Shown piece by piece: positions 7,581 to 41,039 of a stretch of DNA of 64,000 nt. Every line of letters begins with the position of its first letter. The first letter of the stretch is position 1. Source of the DNA: Natrialbaceae archaeon AArc-T1-2. Lineage in GTDB: Archaea; Halobacteriota; Halobacteria; Halobacteriales; Natrialbaceae. The stretch lies in NCBI RefSeq assembly GCF_030273315.1, contig NZ_CP127175.1:124001-188000 (forward strand). The letters are read 5' to 3'. The notes under the pieces were generated by a model that searched no databases, was not told the DNA's origin, and worked only from the letters and a program-made list of their open reading frames with translations. Position numbers and translations under genes: made by a program.

Positions 7581-8508
7581 TGCTTTGTTGAATAGCTGCT
7601 GAACGATGGTTAGAGTGGCTCACAGAGCTTTTCTATGTTGATGATGGCGAACATGAGGACAATTTCACGGAACTGTCGATACCAGCCCAGCGCTCGCACG
7701 GCATCGCCGAGCGAGCGCTTCGTTGTCGAGTACGACGTTTCGGCCATCCAGCGCTGAGCGTAGCCTTTTGTCCGGATAAGCGTGTTGTTCCCTGTCGTGA
7801 GTGGTTTCGATCCACGCTGTAAGATCAGTGGTTCGACACCGAGGGCGTAGAACTCGTATTTGGTGTGCCAGTTGTGGAAGGCTTTGTCAGCAGCGACGGA
7901 AAGCAGGTCGTCCGCGTTCCGGCGGACGACCTGCGGCCCTGTCTTCGTATCGTGTTTCCACCGGGCTGAGATATGAACGTCAAGAACTGCAAGAGACTCT
8001 ACATCGGTTAATGTGGTCACTTTCAGCGTCTGCACGCTATTCCCGGATCGCTGACGGTAATACGATGATGCAGCGTGTCGGTCGAAGAACGTACTGTCGA
8101 GAGCGACGTGTCCAGACTGCGGGTGTTGCTGCGCTGAAACGCGCAGCAACGCCCGCCACACCCACATTTTCAGCCGATCGAACGACTTGTAGATCGTGCT
8201 GTAATCCGGCAACTCGTCCTGATCGAGGCCAAGTACGTCACGAACCTCAGACATGTACTTCAGCCGGTTCGGCGTTTCACGGTAGCTATGGCCCTCTTCG
8301 AGCCGAAAACAGTGCAAAACGACATGTACCCAGCGGGCGAACCCGCCGCTGGCGGGCTCGCCCGCGTGCTTCCCCAACGCTTGTTTGGCTAGGTCTCGAC
8401 ACTGCTCAACGAAGTCGAGGATATCGATTTCCATACCAACCTCGATTTCCTCGACTTCATCCTTCTAACCCGTGATATCAGCTGATTAGATCGCTCTTCA
8501 ACAGAGCA
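7581..8508. mobile_element. IS5-family (ISH1-group-like) insertion sequence, copy 2
   Basis: Second 928-bp copy, same ends as copy 1. It is flanked by its own 8-bp duplication TAATATTC at 7573-7580 and 8509-8516, different from the duplication at copy 1. Same orientation as copy 1. Confidence 0.93.
7610..8434 (-). CDS. IS5-family transposase, copy 2
   Basis: 274-aa protein identical to the one encoded at 669-1493. It has the same two intragenic palindromes (now at about 7904-7933 and 8333-8365). Two identical copies 6 kb apart could recombine and delete or invert nothing essential but would remove the TRAP/IclR island between them, since they are direct repeats. Confidence 0.93.
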   Translation of the reverse strand: MEIDILDFVEQCRDLAKQALGKHAGEPASGGFARWVHVVLHCFRLEEGHSYRETPNRLKYMSEVRDVLGLDQDELPDYSTIYKSFDRLKMWVWRALLRVSAQQHPQSGHVALDSTFFDRHAASSYYRQRSGNSVQTLKVTTLTDVESLAVLDVHISARWKHDTKTGPQVVRRNADDLLSVAADKAFHNWHTKYEFYALGVEPLILQRGSKPLTTGNNTLIRTKGYAQRWMAETSYSTTKRSLGDAVRALGWYRQFREIVLMFAIINIEKLCEPL

Positions 8509-11011: not shown

Positions 11012-11053
11012 TTAACCAACATTCCGCCGTCGATACGCACCAGTGTTGGTTAA
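11012..11053. repeat. Module-boundary inverted repeat 1
   Basis: TTAACCAACA at 11012-11021 and TGTTGGTTAA at 11044-11053, 10-bp perfect arms, 22-bp spacer. Lies between the divergent genes 10335-10937 and 11210-12154. Confidence 0.9.
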
Positions 11054-11209: not shown

Positions 11210-12154
11210 ATGGGAGAACACTCAACGTCGAACCGATTGGCGGTGGACCAGCCAACACGGGGCGCTGACCGCAATCGGTCCCTTGCTGACCAGGCCGATC
11301 CAGCTACGGACGAGATGTTGTTGCCGGCACTCGAGGACGGCATCACGCTGCTCGACGTGGAAGGAGGCCGCGGCGTCCCGATCCTGCAGTCGCTCGTGCT
11401 CGACCATCTCCTCCTGCACGACGGGCCCGCCTTCTGGGTCGACGCAAATGGTCACGCGACGACGACGACACTCGCTCAGATCGCGCCCAGTCAACGGTTG
11501 CTCAACCGAATTCACGTCGCCCGCGGATTCACCGCCTACCAGCACTACGGCGCCGTCTGTGATCTCCCGTCAGCGGTGAATAAGGTAATCCAGTCGTCCA
11601 CCGCCGGTTCTGGGGCGGCCGGTCAACGGGCACCAGGTCGCGACGAGGACGCATCGCCCCACACGCCCGCCCTCATCGTCGCGCCGGCCGTCGACGCCCA
11701 GTACCGCGCCGACGATACCCTCGGCGAAACCCACGCGGGAACCCTTCAGGCTCGAACTCTCGCTCGGTTGGCAACCTACGCCGAGGGGTACGACATCCCG
11801 GTGCTCGTTACGCGAAACGAACGAAACGAATTCACCGAATCAGTCGCGACGGTCGCCGACCACCATCTGGAGTGCGAGCAAACTCGGATGGGGCCACGGG
11901 TCATCGGCGAGGACTTCGAGACGCTCGTCTATCCCGTCGACGACGGCGCGTACTACCAGACGACATTCGCGTACTGGCGGCAGCTGCTCGCGGCACGCGC
12001 TACGCAGGTCGGCGTGGAACCGACGACGCTGGCGCCGTCGACGCCGACCTCGGAGGGTGTCGGGACGGGCGTCACAGCTGACGGTGAGACGGTGGCGGCA
12101 ACCGCGGACCCCCTGCTCGATGCGTGGACGGCGACCGGGACAGGAGGCCGATAG
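11210..12154 (+). CDS. RecA/RadA-like protein without a clear P-loop (ImuA-like position)
   Basis: 314-aa protein. The layout is that of the RecA/KaiC fold: ALEDGITLLDVEGGRGVPILQSLVLDHLL at residues 37-65 sits where a Walker A loop would be but lacks GxxxxGK[ST]; TPALIVAPAVDAQYR is at the Walker B position, followed by a LARLATYAEGYDIPVLVTRNE segment typical of RadA relatives. It is the first gene of a three-gene operon with a small protein and a family B polymerase. In bacteria a degenerate RecA (ImuA) is paired with translesion polymerases, and archaeal PolB2 operons also carry a RadA-like gene, so a role in polymerase recruitment or damage tolerance is inferred. Confidence 0.7.
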   Translation: MGEHSTSNRLAVDQPTRGADRNRSLADQADPATDEMLLPALEDGITLLDVEGGRGVPILQSLVLDHLLLHDGPAFWVDANGHATTTTLAQIAPSQRLLNRIHVARGFTAYQHYGAVCDLPSAVNKVIQSSTAGSGAAGQRAPGRDEDASPHTPALIVAPAVDAQYRADDTLGETHAGTLQARTLARLATYAEGYDIPVLVTRNERNEFTESVATVADHHLECEQTRMGPRVIGEDFETLVYPVDDGAYYQTTFAYWRQLLAARATQVGVEPTTLAPSTPTSEGVGTGVTADGETVAATADPLLDAWTATGTGGR

Positions 12155-12156
12155 CG

Positions 12157-12462
12157 ATGGGGCGGACGAACCCAACCTACCGAGATGCGCTGCGGGCTAT
12201 CGAAGAGCGCTGGGCGGAGTTCCGGCGGGCACTGCGGCGTCGCGACCAGCCGCGATTCGACCGGCTGTTCGAGTACGCCCGCGAGCACGCCGACGCGAGC
12301 GGGCTATTGAACCACCAGAATCCGCTGCTGCCGGCGCTACTCAGCATCGATCTCGAACAGGAGGGCCGACTCGACGACCATGAGGAGCGCCTCGAGGAAC
12401 TCGAGGCCGCGGTCGCAGCACGCGATGACCAGGAGAGCGCCCCGCCGGACGCGAACCCGTGA
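12157..12462 (+). CDS. Small helical protein of the polymerase operon
   Basis: 101-aa, highly charged, predicted mostly helical protein (YRDALRAIEERWAEFRRALRRRDQPRFDRLFEYAREHADA…), with a coiled-coil-like stretch in the second half (EQEGRLDDHEERLEELEAAV). It starts 2 bp after the RecA-like gene and its TGA overlaps the GTG start of the polymerase gene, so it is translationally coupled. It recurs next to haloarchaeal plasmid PolB genes. I infer an accessory or bridging role; no enzymatic motif is visible. Confidence 0.75.
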   Translation: MGRTNPTYRDALRAIEERWAEFRRALRRRDQPRFDRLFEYAREHADASGLLNHQNPLLPALLSIDLEQEGRLDDHEERLEELEAAVAARDDQESAPPDANP

Positions 12463-14630
12463 CGATGCCGTTCAGTATCGACTTCCTCGACGACGGCCGC
12501 GTCCTGGAGTGGGAGGCAACCGCCGATGGCGCCGTCGCGACCGAGTGCGATGACTACACCCCACGCTTCTACGTCGCCGCTCGCGACCCTGATGACAACC
12601 TTGACCTCACGACACTCCAGTCGGTGTACGACCAGCACCCGGATGTCGTCGCGACCGAGATGGTTGCGCGACGGCCGGGCTTTCGACGAGACGAGGAGAC
12701 CGTTCTCGCCGTCGACGTCGCCCACATCGACCGCGTCACCCCACTCGTCCGGCAGGCACGCCAGTTGTCGGACTATCCAGTCGGGGATCTCGCCTGTTTC
12801 AACGTCGACTTCTCGCGAGAGTTCCGGTACTGTCTGGAGACCGGTGCCGATCCGACACCCGCGAGCGAGCTGTCGACGCTCCGGCTCAGTATTCCGGTGA
12901 CCGAAACGAGCAACGACGTCTACGAGAAACTGTCCGCCGCCGGCGACACCGTCACCGGCTCGCCGACGGATATCCTGACCGCCGTCCAAGGGGCACTCGA
13001 AGCGCACGATCCGGATGTCCTGGTCTGCTCAACCAGCGAGATCGTCCCGACCCTGTACGAGATGGCGACGGACGCCGGCGTCGACGACTTCTCGCTGAGC
13101 AGGTGGCCGGACGTCGACTATCAGCAGCTCGCGAGCCGGTCGACGTACTCGAGTTACGGCCGCGTCGGTCACTCGCCGGCGCGGTACAACGTGCCTGGCC
13201 GGGCGATCATCGACGAGTCGAACACGTTCTTCTACGGGGAGACGAACCTCGACGGCGTCCTCGACCTCGTGTCGCGCTCGAAAAAGCCCGTCCAGGAGCT
13301 CGCGTGGGCGTCGATCGGGAACGTGCTCACGGCGATCCAGATCTGCGAGGCCCACGACCGCGGCGTCCTCGTGCCGTGGAACTCCTGGCGCCATGAGTTC
13401 TACAAACCGATGGGGACGCTCCACGACGCCGACCGCGGCGGCTTCATCTTCGCACCCGAGGTCGGCCTCCACGAGAACGTCCACGAACTCGACTTCTCCT
13501 CGTTGTACCCGAACATCATCTGTACCCGGAACGTCTCGCCGGACGTCATCCGGTGTAGCTGCCACAGCGACCGCGACGACGTCCCCGGCCTCGGGTACTC
13601 AATCTGCGACGACCGGGGCTACCTCGTCGACGTGCTACAGCCGATCATCGACGCTCGCGACGAGATCAAGGCGGCCATCCGTCGCGAGAAGGAACGAGAC
13701 GACCCCGATGAGGATCGACTGGCAGAACTCGAGGGGCGTTCGGGAGCGCTGAAGTGGATCCTCGTCGCCTGCTTCGGCTATCAAGGGTTCAGCAACGCGA
13801 AATTCGGCCGCATCGAGTGCCACGAAGCGATCAACGCGTTTGCTCGCGAGATCCTACTAACGGCGAAACAACGGCTGGAAGCTGGCGGCTGGCGCGTCGT
13901 CCACGGCATCGTCGACTCCATCTGGGTGACGCCGGACCCCGACCTCGACGACGAGGACCGCGAGGACCTCGAGACGCTCACGACGGAGATCACGGAACGT
14001 GTTGAGATTCGGCTCGAACACGAAGCCCACTACGACTGGGTGGCGTTTGTGCCGCAGCGCGAGAGCGACGCTGGTGCGTTGACGAAATACTTCGGGAAGG
14101 TCGCCGGCGACGACGAGTTCAAGATACGTGGTATCGAAGCTCGGCAGCGCTCGACTCCATCGTTCATCGAGGACGTCCAGCGGGATTGTCTCGAACGGCT
14201 CGACGCGACTCGATCCCCGGATGCCGTACTTGACTGTCTTCAGGACGCGATCAGTCGCCTCCACGCTGGGACGGTGCCGGTCAAGCAGCTCGTCGAACGG
14301 AATCGTGTCTCCAAGCCGCTGGAAGGGTACACGCAGAACACACAGAACGTGGCGGCGCTAAAGCGGGCTCGCGACCAGGACCTCGCCATCCACCCGGGAC
14401 AAGACATCCAGTACGTGGTCGTCGACGACGAGAAGAGTTCGCGAGAGCGGGTCGCGTTGGCTCACGAAGAGACGGAGTCGTACGATGCGTCGTACTACGA
14501 GACGCAACTCGTCAGAGCTGTCGAGAGTGTGCTGGCACCGCTTGGCTGGGATCGGACGGAGATTCAACGCGAGATCGCGGAAACTCGGGAAACGGACCTG
14601 GCCGCCTTCACCGAGATTGAGAGATGTTAA
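12459..14630 (+). CDS. Family B DNA polymerase, PolB2-like
   Basis: 723-aa DNA polymerase. Motif A is DFSSLYPNII (345-354), motif B is KWILVACFGYQGF (432-444) and motif C is HGIVDSIWV (482-490), where the first Asp of the usual YGDTDS is Ile and the second is kept. The N-terminal region has an exonuclease-like layout but I see no DxE metal site, so proofreading is probably lost. The short length (typical replicative PolB is 800-900) and these losses fit PolB2, whose Sulfolobus relative is linked to damage-induced mutagenesis. GTG start overlaps the upstream stop. Its TAA stop is part of the next inverted repeat. Confidence 0.85.
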   Translation: MTMPFSIDFLDDGRVLEWEATADGAVATECDDYTPRFYVAARDPDDNLDLTTLQSVYDQHPDVVATEMVARRPGFRRDEETVLAVDVAHIDRVTPLVRQARQLSDYPVGDLACFNVDFSREFRYCLETGADPTPASELSTLRLSIPVTETSNDVYEKLSAAGDTVTGSPTDILTAVQGALEAHDPDVLVCSTSEIVPTLYEMATDAGVDDFSLSRWPDVDYQQLASRSTYSSYGRVGHSPARYNVPGRAIIDESNTFFYGETNLDGVLDLVSRSKKPVQELAWASIGNVLTAIQICEAHDRGVLVPWNSWRHEFYKPMGTLHDADRGGFIFAPEVGLHENVHELDFSSLYPNIICTRNVSPDVIRCSCHSDRDDVPGLGYSICDDRGYLVDVLQPIIDARDEIKAAIRREKERDDPDEDRLAELEGRSGALKWILVACFGYQGFSNAKFGRIECHEAINAFAREILLTAKQRLEAGGWRVVHGIVDSIWVTPDPDLDDEDREDLETLTTEITERVEIRLEHEAHYDWVAFVPQRESDAGALTKYFGKVAGDDEFKIRGIEARQRSTPSFIEDVQRDCLERLDATRSPDAVLDCLQDAISRLHAGTVPVKQLVERNRVSKPLEGYTQNTQNVAALKRARDQDLAIHPGQDIQYVVVDDEKSSRERVALAHEETESYDASYYETQLVRAVESVLAPLGWDRTEIQREIAETRETDLAAFTEIERC

Positions 14631-14667
14631 CCAACACTATCGAGGTGTCGAGTGATTTGTTGGTTAA
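14627..14667. repeat. Module-boundary inverted repeat 2
   Basis: TTAACCAACA at 14627-14636 and TGTTGGTTAA at 14658-14667, perfect arms, 21-bp spacer. The polymerase stop codon is inside the left arm; the origin region begins just beyond. Confidence 0.9.
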
Positions 14668-14714
14668 TTCTGAGTGGAGACACGGAAGGGAGCTGGAGAG
14701 AATACCTCGCCCAC

Positions 14715-15776
14715 ACACCCCTCGTCCAGAGTGAAAACCGACCAGAGGTGTGGGGTGAGGTCCACGGGAAACGGGGGTTCTTGTGAGAGGATATCAGCAA
14801 GAATCACGGAAAGACTGTCTGAAACGGGAGAAAACGGAAGAAATGGAACAGCAAACACGAGCAGCGGTTCGAAACCACCCGGACGAATGCCGCCTTCGTC
14901 CTCTTCTTTGTGCTGAATGCACTTGGAGAGTGGTAGGAAGTGGGTAGTAATAAAACCTCTAGGTAATGCTATGAAGATTGGTATGTTTAGAGGATCTTCG
15001 ACTGTGTGACGACCGCTGTTAGAGGGATACACGCCTCACGTCTTGTGATTTCAGTACTTCCCAGCCGACTCGTCGTGTGGTTTCCACCCGGTGAGCTGTG
15101 GGACTCTCGTAGCGTTTCACTCTGGACGAGGGGTGTGGGGGTTCGATTCCGTCGTCCGTGTATTATGAGACGTTGAAGGAACAATCGTCATTCTGACTAT
15201 TCGTCAACCAGCGAAGCGGCACCAAAGCCGAAATCGGGATTAGTATCTCCCGACCTTCCTCGTCAACCGGAATCAGGAGGCCCAATCCCAACAGTTCCGA
15301 TTGTACCCTGATTTGCTTCGGCTGGAGATCTGACCTGCGTCTTCACTCTTGATTGGGGGTGCCGACGAACGCTCGACACCATCACTCGAGGTTCACACTC
15401 CACTCCAGCTCGTCACACCGGCGCTTTCACTCTGGACGAGGGGTGTCTGCCGTGCGTCAGACGCCCAGGGCCGATGTGTCCTCTCATAGATATGATTGAT
15501 TACCCGGTTCGGGAGATACACTCTGGACAGGGGGTGTCGTCTCAACCAAGTACGCTGCTCCCGGATGGAGGACTATTCACTCTTGACCAGGGGTGTGTCA
15601 AACCCGCTCCAGTCCGGCGTTTTCACTCTGGATTAGGGGTGCCGGTCTGCGTCAGTAACTCTCGCTCCGAATCCGATTTCACTCGGGACCGGCTCGACTC
15701 TTTGTGAGGATGATACGCCAGCGACAAAACATCAGAAGACGACCATAGCCCGATTTACACTCTGGTCGAGGTAGCC
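14715..15776. other. Replication origin with ORB-like repeats
   Basis: About nine copies of a motif close to TTCACTCTGGACGAGGGGTG lie in the gene-free kilobase before orc1. One is on the minus strand (14715-14737). The rest are on the plus strand: 15115-15136, 15342-15363, 15425-15446, 15516-15537, 15575-15596, 15621-15643, and weaker ones at 15677-15696 and 15754-15776. Between the inverted first copy and the second is the most AT-rich stretch here (about 14935-15000), a likely unwinding element. Haloarchaeal origins have this plan: inverted origin recognition boxes with a G-string, around an AT-rich element, beside orc1/cdc6. The last copy sits at the orc1 promoter and could autoregulate it. 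Confidence 0.88.
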
Positions 15777-15815
15777 AAATCATTAAGTAGGTCCCATCCG
15801 CGATGTCTGATATTG

Positions 15816-17093
15816 ATGGCTGAGGAACCGTCCCAACTCTCTGACTTCGACGGCCGCTACGAGGATCCCGCTGACGATCCCCTCTTTGACTTTGATGAAG
15901 ACGACCCCGACCGCGCCAACATTTTCGCTCGCAAAGAGCTGCTTAAGGTGGGCCACGTCCCTGAAAGTGGCCGTATCGTCGGCCGGGATGGCGAGATCAA
16001 GGCCGTTGCTGCTGAACTCAGACCGATCGTTCGTGGCGATCCGCCCAACAACGTGATTATTTACGGCAAAACGGGAACCGGGAAGTCACTCGTTGCCCGT
16101 CACGTCACCGAGCGAGCCCGGCGAGCCGCGGAGTCGAACGGTGTGTCCGTCGGCACGGTCTACGTCGACTGCGCGCAGCACAACACACAGACACGCGTCG
16201 CGAGGACAGTGACTCGTTCACTCAACGAGACGGACGAGACTGACTTCGATATTCCACGCGCAGGGATTGGCAGCGGTGAATACTACGACTATCTCTGGGA
16301 GATTCTGGATACTGCCTACGAGTCAGTCATCATCATCCTCGACGAGGTGGACCGACTCGATGACGATGATATTCTTATGCAGCTCTCGCGGGCTCGCGAA
16401 TCGGGGAAAGCGGATTGCCACCTGGGCGTCATCGCAGTCAGCAACAAGATCGAGTATCGCGACCAGCTGAACGAACGCGTCAAGTCCAGTCTTCGCGAGG
16501 AGGAGTTCGTCTTCCAACCCTACGACGCGAATCAACTGCGCGAGATTATGAAGCACCGACGGGACGCGTTCCACGATGGCGTTCTCTCGGATGATGTGAT
16601 CCCGCTGACGGCGGCACTAGCCGCTCAAGAACACGGTGACGCCAGAAAGGCCATCGAAATTCTTCGTCACGCCGGCGAACTGGCCGAACGAGAAAACGTC
16701 GATACAGTCGTCGAGGAACACGTTCGCGATGCCCAGGAGTGGGCTGAAATCGATCGCTTCGAGGAGCTTCTCCGTGGATCGACGACCCAAGTCAAATTCA
16801 TCCTCTATTCGCTCGCGCTGCTCACCGAAGAGAATCCGAACGAGGACGGGTTTTCGACCAACCGTATTTTCGAACGGTATCAGGCGACGACAGAGAAGGC
16901 TGATGCGAAGACTCTCAGCGAGCACCGCGTCTACGAGCTGTTGAAAGAGCAGGCGTTCCTCGGTGTCGTTGAATCAACTCGGACCGGGGGTGGCCGGGGT
17001 GAGGGCAGTTATCTCGAGCACCGGCTGGTTCAGGACACCGGTATCGTGTTGAAATCTGTCCTCCGGGACAGTCGGCTGGAAGACTTGGCCTAG
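15816..17093 (+). CDS. orc1: Orc1/Cdc6 replication initiator
   Basis: 425-aa AAA+ initiator that binds origin repeats and loads MCM. Walker A is GKTGTGKS (84-91), Walker B ILDEVD (174-179), with sensor-like ISN region after it (VIAVSNK), and a C-terminal winged helix (about 330-425) that reads the origin boxes. ATG 15816 is chosen over an upstream TTG; an ATTAAGTA TATA-like box lies about 30 bp before it. Its own origin is directly upstream, so this pair probably drives replication of this replicon. Confidence 0.95.
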   Translation: MAEEPSQLSDFDGRYEDPADDPLFDFDEDDPDRANIFARKELLKVGHVPESGRIVGRDGEIKAVAAELRPIVRGDPPNNVIIYGKTGTGKSLVARHVTERARRAAESNGVSVGTVYVDCAQHNTQTRVARTVTRSLNETDETDFDIPRAGIGSGEYYDYLWEILDTAYESVIIILDEVDRLDDDDILMQLSRARESGKADCHLGVIAVSNKIEYRDQLNERVKSSLREEEFVFQPYDANQLREIMKHRRDAFHDGVLSDDVIPLTAALAAQEHGDARKAIEILRHAGELAERENVDTVVEEHVRDAQEWAEIDRFEELLRGSTTQVKFILYSLALLTEENPNEDGFSTNRIFERYQATTEKADAKTLSEHRVYELLKEQAFLGVVESTRTGGGRGEGSYLEHRLVQDTGIVLKSVLRDSRLEDLA

Positions 17094-17279: not shown

Positions 17280-17603
17280 TTACTCGTCGGGGCTGACGGG
17301 ACCTTTATACTGGGAACGTACCTTATCTCCCTCCCGCCACTGCCAGTAGTAGTAGCGATTGTCGTTGATCTCCTTGATCGTGATCGTCGCTTTGGCAGGG
17401 ACGTCGTCTGGGAGATCGTCTGGTCGCTCTTCGACCTCTTCTTGATTTGCCGATTCCTCGAGACGGGCCTCGCGTTCCTTGTGCTCGGCGAGCGCTTCAG
17501 CGTACGTCGCAACGTCTCGGAGCTGTTCCGGGTCCGACTCGTTGAGCGTGTTGACGATCTCCGTCGGGAGGTTCGCTGGTGGGGTCGGGGGTTCGTAGGA
17601 CAT
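17280..17603 (-). CDS. Conserved small acidic haloarchaeal protein
   Basis: 107 aa. Middle part is a charged helix (QLRDVATYAEALAEHKEREARLEE) and the C-terminus a compact beta-rich domain (KATITIKEINDNRYYYWQWREGDKVRSQYKGPV). Proteins with this WQWR..KVKSQYKGPV ending are common beside HTH/nucleotidyltransferase pairs in haloarchaea; the function is not known to me. An inverted repeat begins 15 bp upstream of the ATG, so it may be controlled from there, divergently from the HTH gene. Confidence 0.8.
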   Translation of the reverse strand: MSYEPPTPPANLPTEIVNTLNESDPEQLRDVATYAEALAEHKEREARLEESANQEEVEERPDDLPDDVPAKATITIKEINDNRYYYWQWREGDKVRSQYKGPVSPDE

Positions 17604-17617
17604 CGGCTATACTCGTG

Positions 17618-17658
17618 TTAACCAACACGGCCCACAAATCCATAGTTTTGTTGGTTAA
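17618..17658. repeat. Module-boundary inverted repeat 3
   Basis: TTAACCAACA at 17618-17627 and TGTTGGTTAA at 17649-17658, perfect arms, 21-bp spacer, in the divergent region between the 107-aa gene and the HTH gene. Confidence 0.9.
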
Positions 17659-17699
17659 GACGATGGAGACGGTTCTCGCGATTGCTGGCTGTAACACTA

Positions 17700-17729
17700 T
17701 ACGAAACTTCTTTATATACTAGTTTCGTA
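17700..17729. promoter_or_regulatory. TATA box overlapped by a palindromic operator
   Basis: TTTATATA (17711-17718) lies about 27 bp before the GTG at 17742, the normal spacing for a leaderless haloarchaeal transcript. It is enclosed by TACGAAAC (17700-17707) and GTTTCGTA (17722-17729), an 8-bp perfect inverted repeat that would block TBP/TFB if bound. The HTH product of the gene is the obvious candidate ligand. Confidence 0.75.
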
Positions 17730-17741
17730 CTATGTTACACC

Positions 17742-18668
17742 GTGCTCCGGCGCATCGAACTCGAGGTCCTCGCCACGGTCGACCGCGGCGACACGATCTC
17801 CGAACTCGCGACGAAGCTCGACCACAGCGAGAGTTACCTCTCTCGTGCCGTCGCCGACCTCGTCGAGAAGGGACTCGTCTACACGGAACGCGACGGCCGC
17901 CGAAAACGAGTCATCCCGTCAGATGCTCGCGCCGTCGAACTCTACCGGGACCTCGTCCGTCAGCACTCCCACATCGACTTCCCCGAACTGCTGACCAGCA
18001 AGGCACTCGAGGTGCTGTACTACCTCGACCAGCCGCGAACCGTCTCCGAGATCGCCGGCCGGAGCGACAACTACCGCAACACGGTCAACCGCGTCCTCAA
18101 GCGTTTTCGCGACCGTGGGCTCGTCGGGACGGCCGACGGCCACTACGAGTTCAACGCCGACTTCGACCGCCTCCACGAGTTCGCCCGTGAACTCGTACAC
18201 CATCTGCATCGCCACCGCCTCGAAGCCGTTGCCCCGAAGGGCACGATTCTTTGGGAGGACTACGACGAATTCCTCGCCCAGGCCGAGACGGAGATCGACG
18301 CGGAGGCGTTCCACGAAACCGGCCTCGCTCGGTTCGCGGCCTTCGACCTCCAGTTCCTGCTCACCGGCCATCGCTACTACGTCTACTCCGAGGATCTCGA
18401 CGCAGTCTCGCCGGCGGAACTTTGCTGTCACACACTACTGATCGACGACGGCAGCCGCCACCGCTCGTACTGTCTCCTCCTGCTCAGCCACGTCGACGTC
18501 GACGAGGCGGACCTCCGAGAGCAGGCGGCTAAGTATGGCCTTGAAGCCGAAATCGACGCCTTGCTGCGCTACCTCGAGACGCACGGCGAGGTTGATGACG
18601 AGCAGCTCCCGGAGTGGGACGAGTTCCAGGAGCTGGCGGCTGAGTACGAGGTGCCACTACCACAGTAA
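17742..18668 (+). CDS. MarR-like winged-helix protein, antitoxin-like partner of a nucleotidyltransferase
   Basis: 308 aa from GTG 17742, chosen because it sits at the predicted transcription start; upstream codons lie over the promoter. Two winged-helix units are visible: TISELATKLDHSESYLSRAVADLVEKGLV near the start and TVSEIAGRSDNYRNTVNRVLKRFRDRGLV near residue 105. The C-terminal half is a mixed domain without motifs I recognise. In other haloarchaea such genes directly precede a DUF6036-type nucleotidyltransferase; here that partner is at 20049, separated by a TnpB element. Autoregulation through the palindrome at its promoter is likely. Confidence 0.8.
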   Translation: MLRRIELEVLATVDRGDTISELATKLDHSESYLSRAVADLVEKGLVYTERDGRRKRVIPSDARAVELYRDLVRQHSHIDFPELLTSKALEVLYYLDQPRTVSEIAGRSDNYRNTVNRVLKRFRDRGLVGTADGHYEFNADFDRLHEFARELVHHLHRHRLEAVAPKGTILWEDYDEFLAQAETEIDAEAFHETGLARFAAFDLQFLLTGHRYYVYSEDLDAVSPAELCCHTLLIDDGSRHRSYCLLLLSHVDVDEADLREQAAKYGLEAEIDALLRYLETHGEVDDEQLPEWDEFQELAAEYEVPLPQ

Positions 18669-21731: not shown

Positions 21732-21772
21732 TTAACCAACAGAGCGGAAGGGGCCATCACTCTGTTGGTTAA
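21732..21772. repeat. Module-boundary inverted repeat 4
   Basis: TTAACCAACA at 21732-21741 and TGTTGGTTAA at 21763-21772, perfect arms, 21-bp spacer. The TAA stop of the ArdC-like gene is in the right arm. Confidence 0.9.
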
Positions 21773-24297: not shown

Positions 24298-24338
24298 TTA
24301 ACCAACAATAGGGAAATCACGCGGAGGGTGTAGGTTAA
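24298..24338. repeat. Module-boundary inverted repeat 5
   Basis: TTAACCAACA at 24298-24307 and TGTAGGTTAA at 24329-24338 (one mismatch to the other copies), 21-bp spacer. Confidence 0.85.
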
Positions 24339-40046: not shown

Positions 40047-40088
40047 TTAACCAACACTGGATTTGATATGATGTGATATGTTGGTTAA
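40047..40088. repeat. Module-boundary inverted repeat 6
   Basis: TTAACCAACA at 40047-40056 and TGTTGGTTAA at 40079-40088, perfect arms, 22-bp AT-rich spacer. 19 bp after the end of the 310-aa gene. Confidence 0.9.
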
Positions 40089-40106: not shown

Positions 40107-41039
40107 TCACTCTGGAGCCGGTCCGAAACGAGCTGTTCCGCAGGCCTGACACTGCCAAATCGGGTTGCCGTCCCCGGCCTCTTCGGGAAGCTGTTCGCGG
40201 TCGCTGAAGCGGTGGGGCGTCGTCTCGTCACAGCGTCTACAATGAATGTGCTCTGTATTCGATCTCTGGCTCTTCCGGGGTTTCGTTCGATTTTCAGCCG
40301 GGTGCTTCTCGGCCCCAAGTATCGGGATCAGCCACCGTTCACCATCCGCGGTATCGGTCCAAGACTCGATCTGCTCTCTGTTCAGAACGCTGCGGCCGCT
40401 CTCATCATACAACCGCGACAGCGTTCGTTCACCGTCGCTGTGGCCACTCTCATCAGCGCGGTCAATATGCTTCACCGCAACCGACAGGAGCTTCCGACCC
40501 TGCTCCGTTTCGATGCGGACTGCTGCGGGAAGCTCGTCCCACGTCTCGTGGCGAGTAGTCACCGGTGTTTCGGCTACGTCGTCGATGAGCTGGCAGTCCT
40601 CGAGTGGATTCACCCTACGCCGCTGGAGGAGCGTACACGCCGCTGCTCCTTTCGCGAGTGCTGTGTAGTCGCACGTTGCTTCAACAACGGCGAAGATGAT
40701 CCGGGGAACGGGAGTCGGAGCTGTATGCTCGTCACCGGTTGTATCGGCGGACTCAATATGGTGTTCGAGGCAGGTGGCACACTTGCGTTGGTCCGCTGGG
40801 ATCGGCTGTCCACACCCGCGACACGCTTTCGACGTTAACTCCTCGGCGTTCGGATAGCCCGTCGCATCAAGCCGATCGTATGATTCGTCTCTCGACTCGA
40901 GAGACTGATCCGGGACGTGGGTGGCTTCTCCACGGGGCTGAAACGCCTCTCGGTCGAGTTGTCGATTCGATTTCTCCGTCACGCTGACGGGTTCATTTGT
41001 TTTCGTATTTAAATCTCCGCGAGAATAGTCAGAAGACAT
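40107..41039 (-). CDS. Double zinc-ribbon protein
   Basis: 310 aa. First zinc knuckle CRGCGQPIPADQRKCATC at about 91-108, second at the C-terminus (CRRCDETTPHRF…WQCQACG). Middle: ATCDYTALAKGAAACTLLQ, a mixed fold related in layout to the MVIYALVEAS family (sequence-level link weak). Basic and acidic stretches alternate. It lies 36 bp downstream of TFB on the same strand, possibly as one unit. Confidence 0.65.
   Translation of the reverse strand: MSSDYSRGDLNTKTNEPVSVTEKSNRQLDREAFQPRGEATHVPDQSLESRDESYDRLDATGYPNAEELTSKACRGCGQPIPADQRKCATCLEHHIESADTTGDEHTAPTPVPRIIFAVVEATCDYTALAKGAAACTLLQRRRVNPLEDCQLIDDVAETPVTTRHETWDELPAAVRIETEQGRKLLSVAVKHIDRADESGHSDGERTLSRLYDESGRSVLNREQIESWTDTADGERWLIPILGAEKHPAENRTKPRKSQRSNTEHIHCRRCDETTPHRFSDREQLPEEAGDGNPIWQCQACGTARFGPAPE

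Follow-up and report, generated by a model that had tools for sequence, protein, structure and literature searches.

The DNA analyzed is a 64-kb haloarchaeal window taken from a non-chromosomal contig of 190,949 bp (G000:C2:124001-188000), one of three contigs in the genome. Three genes, iRadA, PPB2, and PolB2, lie head to tail on its plus strand with 2-bp gaps between successive genes (Table 1). An earlier note on this DNA had proposed a cassette of three coupled genes here, and they were indeed found tightly packed and on the same strand; their adjacency and shared strand are also kept in relatives. From their sequences, the genes are confidently assigned to the published PolB2 mutasome operon, iRadA-PPB2-PolB2 (Timinskas et al. 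2025, PMC11791011), the components of which also appear as arCOG07763, arCOG07300, and PolB2 (Makarova et al. 2014, PMC4104785). This kind of operon is not new and was previously described in haloarchaea as well (PMC4104785, PMC1906834). Our analysis covered gene content and order, family membership, the lost P-loop, Walker B, and exonuclease residues, the state of motif C, plasmid location, and the wide distribution of the operon. Inverted repeats on both sides of the operon were found to be a separate, plasmid-wide feature.

The start of PolB2 is probably the ATG at 12465 (MPFSIDF...) because most relatives align from MPF and the start given in plasmid annotations lies 2 bp downstream of the stop codon of PPB2. 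The overlapping GTG at 12459, taken as the start earlier, is less likely for the same reasons.

Table 1. Coordinates of the operon, the inverted repeats, and neighboring features, numbered from the first letter of the window
Feature	Position	Strand	Description
iRadA	11210..12154	+	314 aa; RadA/RecA fold lacking the Lys of the P-loop and the Asp of Walker B; arCOG07763-like
PPB2	12157..12462	+	101 aa; begins MGRT; arCOG07300-like
PolB2	12465..14630	+	Family B polymerase with IVD in motif C; proofreading site absent
Inverted repeat 1	11012..11053		TTAACCAACA-N22-TGTTGGTTAA; perfect 10-bp arms; 157 bp upstream of iRadA
Inverted repeat 2	14627..14667		TTAACCAACA-N21-TGTTGGTTAA; perfect 10-bp arms; PolB2 stop codon lies in its outer TTAA
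Inverted repeat 3	17618..17658		Divergent promoter region between the 107-aa gene and a helix-turn-helix (HTH) gene
Inverted repeat 4	21732..21772		Between ArdC-like and SWIM-like genes
Inverted repeat 5	24298..24338		One arm mismatch; upstream of a DUF6610 gene
Inverted repeat 6	40047..40088		3' of the gene at 40107-41039 (-)
Putative replication origin	14710..15771		Origin recognition box (ORB)-like repeats (TTTCACTCTGGACGAGGGGTGT) and G-string, both orientations; repeat search, ORB definition from PMC3528665
Orc1/Cdc6 initiator gene	15813..17093	+	Pfam Cdc6_lid 1.6e-25, Cdc6_C 7e-17
~107-aa protein	17280..17603	-	Conserved, no Pfam family; inverted repeat 3 lies 15 bp before its start codon; candidate repeat binder

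Sequence features of the three proteins

PolB2 matched NCBIfam NF004418 at 1446 bits (cut-off 692), which places it in the PolB2 group, and Pfam DNA_pol_B (PF00136) at E 3.8e-26. When aligned to P. abyssi PolB, its motif C reads HGIVDS opposite YIDTDG (canonical form YxDTD) and, therefore, the first Asp is lost while the second is retained. Motif A (LDFSSLYP) keeps its Asp in the same alignment. Across 20 haloarchaeal PolB2s of 55-95% identity, HGIVDS, the DFSSLYP of motif A, and the Lys of the fingers do not vary. No match to the exonuclease domain PF03104 was found at E<=1 in any of these 20 members, and the residues opposite Exo I (VDIET) and Exo II (NGDNF) are non-acidic in a profile alignment that is weak in that region. 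Both earlier suggestions about this protein, a motif C without its first Asp and an apparently missing exonuclease site, thus hold across the 20 members.

The loss of the first motif C Asp in all 20 aligned members could mean that PolB2 is catalytically dead. The complex would then be structural or regulatory, for example in handling stalled forks or in controlling origin firing with the neighboring Orc1. An inactive PolB2 has been proposed before (PMC4104785), and the operon does lie beside a probable origin and orc1. We consider this explanation unlikely, since Dpo2 of S. islandicus carries a similar substitution (IID) and is a robust polymerase (PMC8764526). In addition, the Asp of motif A, the second Asp of motif C, and the Lys of the fingers stay unchanged throughout the 55-95% identity range, which would not be expected of a dead enzyme.

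A profile of 26 iRadA sequences was compared to the PDB, and the sole top matches were RadA, RadB, and Rad51, the best being RadA 4a6p at E 3.9e-5. The RadA family model TIGR02236 matched the iRadA of one relative at E 2.9e-5. A direct hhalign comparison of iRadA to RadA of the host family covered only 87 columns, with a probability of 47%. All 26 sequences in the alignment lack the GK[ST] P-loop, and the Asp of Walker B has been substituted there (LIVAPA in place of the RadA LLIVDS). iRadA has lost the ATPase site and has no N-terminal RadA domain, like the RadA-fold partner of the published mutasome. The profile matches and the absent GK[ST] bear out the proposal of a RecA-fold protein without the P-loop lysine motif. 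An intact P-loop or exonuclease site had been named in the earlier note as evidence against the cassette; the alignments contain neither.

The middle gene, which had been described as encoding a small helical protein, was identified as PPB2. No confident Pfam match was obtained for it, but its N-terminus, MGRTNPTYRD, and its gene position agree with the MGRT arm and the arrangement in PMC11791011. The C-terminal PLLDAWT of iRadA and ETDLAAF of PolB2, both conserved, could be degenerate PCNA-binding motifs. Such motifs have been described for some PolB2 complexes (PMC11791011).

Comparison with the published mutasome and distribution of the operon

Like the published PolB2 mutasome (PMC11791011, PMC4104785), the operon has the same three genes in a published order, the MGRT arm on PPB2, an inactivated RadA, a replaced first Asp in motif C, a lost exonuclease site, and orc1 nearby. 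It differs in belonging to a plasmid-borne clade in which iRadA is about 314 aa long, with an insertion in the middle of the protein and the conserved C-terminal PLLDAWT, whereas more diverged iRadAs have about 223-244 aa. It is also bordered by the inverted repeat with the half-site TTAACCAACR.

A PolB2 polymerase is present in 72 of the 125 genomes of the family. The operon was found in 96 haloarchaeal plasmid records, where coverage varies and reaches at least 80% of the query in 35, and these records label it as a type B polymerase with hypothetical proteins. It adjoins orc1 on several plasmids, and linkage of polB2 to orc has been reported (PMC1906834, PMC4104785). The operon is a further well-preserved case of an archaeal PolB2 mutasome on a plasmid and indicates that this mutasome is widely spread by haloarchaeal plasmids. 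A broken second copy lies on the other plasmid of the same genome (L002/L003, G000:C3:33959-37398). Its open reading frame (ORF) fuses iRadA residues 14-76 to PolB2 from residue 567 onward; there are further stops downstream, and a repeat with one arm mismatch lies 111 bp upstream.

Proposed function of the operon

The operon very probably encodes a plasmid-borne PolB2 mutasome, which would provide damage tolerance at a mutational cost, and a translesion role of the cassette is probable in this lineage. The suggested archaeal translesion cassette draws support from membership in the mutasome family, from genetics and biochemistry in Sulfolobus (PMC7390963, PMC8764526), and from published structural modeling of 40 PolB2 complexes (PMC11791011). 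In S. islandicus, Dpo2 (motif IID) is an active, exonuclease-free extender and is responsible for targeted mutagenesis (PMC7390963, PMC8764526); the earlier note had also linked archaeal PolB2 to induced mutagenesis in Sulfolobus. Both Dpo2 and the PolB2 studied here have a non-canonical motif C (IID and IVD, respectively) and no exonuclease. Dpo2 is crenarchaeal, and damage induction and extender activity have been shown for it; for the haloarchaeal protein they are predicted.

By analogy with Dpo2, PolB2 would be a proofreading-deficient family B polymerase that extends primers beyond lesions and mismatches. iRadA, without its ATPase residues, may act as a RadA-shaped docking subunit that PolB2 holds in the way that one RadA protomer is held by the next. 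PPB2 would form a trimer, with the N-terminal MGRT arm of one subunit reaching in between PolB2, iRadA, and the DNA. Together, the three proteins could be a functional counterpart of E. coli Pol V (UmuC, UmuD', and RecA), and the mutasome would be carried by a large plasmid beside that plasmid's own origin and Orc1.

Several points weigh against this proposal. Extender activity and mutagenesis are taken from published work on relatives, as are damage induction, which is not visible from the sequence, and the architecture of the complex, which comes from published models. The alignment of the N-terminal exonuclease region is weak, with an i-E of 0.0016 for that stretch. For haloarchaeal PolB2, we found no activity or phenotype beyond dispensability: polB2 and orc4 of Halobacterium are both dispensable (PMC1906834), and an unpublished deletion of a haloarchaeal polB2 is mentioned in PMC7776575. 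The non-essential nature of polB2 in Halobacterium fits what is expected of a tolerance polymerase. Haloferax volcanii also has a polB2 (HVO_A0065).

Another possible explanation is that PolB2 is an accessory replication polymerase that copies the plasmid or takes part in initiation and has no role in lesion tolerance. The physical linkage of the operon to ORB-like repeats and orc1 would fit. Related PolB2 copies also occur on large main contigs, however, with close operon copies without flanking repeats on contigs of more than 1 Mb (L056, L059, and L060). A close PolB2 is missing from many genomes of the family, including some whose replicons carry the repeat, and the dispensability of polB2 and orc4 in Halobacterium also argues against a replicative role, which we regard as very unlikely.

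The earlier note had compared the cassette to the bacterial ImuA/ImuB/DnaE2 mutasome, with which it shares a RecA-like protein beside an error-prone polymerase. That system has a Y-family ImuB and a C-family DnaE2, while the operon here has a family B polymerase and, in the middle position, PPB2. Membership was rejected, as neither a C-family DnaE2 nor a Y-family ImuB is present, and Pol V would be the closer parallel in how the complex works. Pol V (UmuC-UmuD'2-RecA) likewise combines an error-prone polymerase with a RecA-family partner and a small multimeric partner. It differs in its Y-family polymerase, to which no homologue exists here, its active RecA, and its control by LexA. Relatives of Pol V, such as MucAB and RumAB, are often plasmid-borne, and a plasmid-borne PolB2 mutasome parallels these bacterial genes.

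A conserved inverted repeat on haloarchaeal plasmids and viruses

The repeat has the form TTAACCAACR-N20..23-YGTTGGTTAA. The window contains six copies, four of them away from the operon, and 12 arm matches were observed compared to 1.2 expected, a number reached in none of 100 shuffles. Exact copies number nine in the genome as a whole and are confined to the two non-chromosomal contigs, C2 and C3; the 3.08-Mb contig C1 lacks them. In the family, 395 copies were found in 79 of 125 genomes, while a reversed-pattern control gave none in this genome and none in the 125 family genomes. A scan of 84,980 species returned at least 119 stretches with the repeat, and all but two of the matches listed were haloarchaeal. 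The repeat is found across the class Halobacteria and also in 50 viral stretches. It is a genuine, strongly conserved element of haloarchaeal plasmids and viruses. The claim that inverted repeats bound the operon was correct in that they occur on both sides, but the motif is general to haloarchaeal plasmids and does not single out the operon.

Of 244 unique sites, 201 have a spacer of 21 or 22 nucleotides and 38 have one of 20 or 23; the spacer varies in sequence as well as length. When as many as two mismatches are tolerated, the arms vary almost exclusively by A to G at the innermost base, which gives the half-site TTAACCAACR. Among the papers listed by a literature search for the arm sequence, no paper was about haloarchaea, and the literature on haloarchaeal plasmids and inverted repeats concerned ORB and G-rich origin repeats and not the TTAACCAACR motif.

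In many close plasmid operons, the upstream repeat lies 157-165 bp before iRadA and the PolB2 stop codon is inside the downstream repeat. The distance of inverted repeat 1 to iRadA is equal in three relatives (L045, L048, and L110), and the offset of inverted repeat 2 is also the same in relatives. Some close relatives are without one or both repeats, and more diverged operons (55-60% identity) have neither.

The presence of repeats on both sides of the operon in several relatives, already pointed out in the earlier note, raises the question of whether they mark a mobile cassette, a repeat-operon-repeat unit that moves by site-specific recombination. A screen for one-sided homology was promising, since flank homology often stops at a repeat (51 of 180 related pairs), although some of these breaks are insertion-sequence-like ends beside the repeat. 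A controlled synteny test did not support it. Gene adjacency was broken at repeat gaps compared to other gaps at 0.06 vs 0.10, 0.17 vs 0.17, and 0.46 vs 0.28 in successive identity bands. Adjacency is, thus, not clearly less conserved across repeat gaps, there is no excess of breaks, and the repeats are not evident recombination boundaries. The variable spacer (20-23) is also unusual for recombinase core sites, which makes this explanation quite unlikely, and it was rejected given the synteny result and the lack of a constant-length core. An insertion-sequence-like end (CGCTCTTATGTAGAA...) was seen about 8 bp outside the repeat in several plasmids (L073, L158, L164, and L044), and insertion nearby is possibly preferred.

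The repeats could instead be operators of one regulon to which the PolB2 operon belongs, made up, for example, of genes induced by damage or entry. Single gene families keep fixed distances from the repeat: 13-17 bp to the start of the 107-aa gene, 84 bp to an HTH gene, and 157 bp to iRadA. The ArdC-like, SRAP, XseAB, and PolB2 neighbors have a repair or anti-restriction flavor. The repeats are intergenic, with 10 of 244 sites within a called gene. Over all usable sites, the fractions in divergent, convergent, and tandem gaps were 0.22/0.21/0.57 compared to a background of 0.24/0.19/0.56 and, therefore, there is no overall promoter preference. The repeat often follows stop codons, convergent gaps included. 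The promoter-operator explanation was thus not supported in aggregate, the fixed spacing in single families notwithstanding, and we lean against a single regulon while considering it possible.

The commonest neighbor of the repeat is the conserved ~107-aa protein. The repeat lies 5' of its gene in 41 of 46 cases, and the usual distance to the start codon is 13-17 bp. All 62 genomes with strong copies of this protein contain the repeat, compared to 17 of 63 other genomes (Fisher 3e-20). Some of this association is to be expected, given that the gene is preceded by the repeat. As a control, the presence of any PolB2 showed no association with the repeat in the family genomes. Among the 62 genomes, surplus repeats beyond one per copy did not correlate with the copy number of the protein (rho 0.19, p 0.14). 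Its AlphaFold model has two helices and a three-stranded sheet (pLDDT 77, pTM 0.43), and Foldseek with this model gave nothing significant, with matches at chance level only, such as integrase arm-binding domains. In PHROGs, it matched only an unnamed family (best E 1.1e-5, 8 of 22 members). The protein also occurs in two viral contigs (L203 and L232) in a similar arrangement with the repeat. Across the repeat from the 107-aa gene, and divergent from it in several plasmids, is a regulator with two winged-helix-like domains (HVO_2833 family), located at 17682-18668 (+) in the window. In three annotated plasmids, the named repeat neighbors include ArdC-like, SRAP, DUF262, XseAB, HTH, and PolB2 genes, in addition to plain hypotheticals.

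The likeliest explanation of the repeat, though a weakly supported one, is a plasmid-wide protein-binding site that would be recognized by the ~107-aa protein or by a partner of it. More broadly, and only tentatively, haloarchaeal plasmids and viruses may share a DNA-binding system not described so far, in which the repeat would be the target and an autoregulated ~107-aa protein the candidate binder. Such a system might coordinate or insulate transcription units (the PolB2 mutasome, SRAP, ArdC-like, XseAB, Orc1, and HTH), for example upon plasmid entry or DNA damage, or it might organize partition. The KorB/OB sites of RK2 and parS form plasmid-wide operator or partition networks. These are also short, nearly invariant inverted-repeat sites scattered over plasmids, but no KorB or ParB homologue was identified as the binder here, and the arms are 31-32 bp apart. 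Control of the damage response and of plasmid maintenance is poorly known in haloarchaeal plasmids, and a control or partition site, if that is what the repeat is, would be a shared, testable cis-element for them. The repeats merit more attention than the operon.

Other features of the window

The region at 14710-15771, directly downstream of PolB2 and next to orc1, is a probable plasmid replication origin, judged by its ORB-like repeats. Rfam and tRNA scans of the window gave no match. To the left of the operon, two transposase-like ORFs of 274 aa with the same N-terminal sequence lie about 6 kb apart on the minus strand (669-1493 and 7610-8434) and possibly form a composite element.

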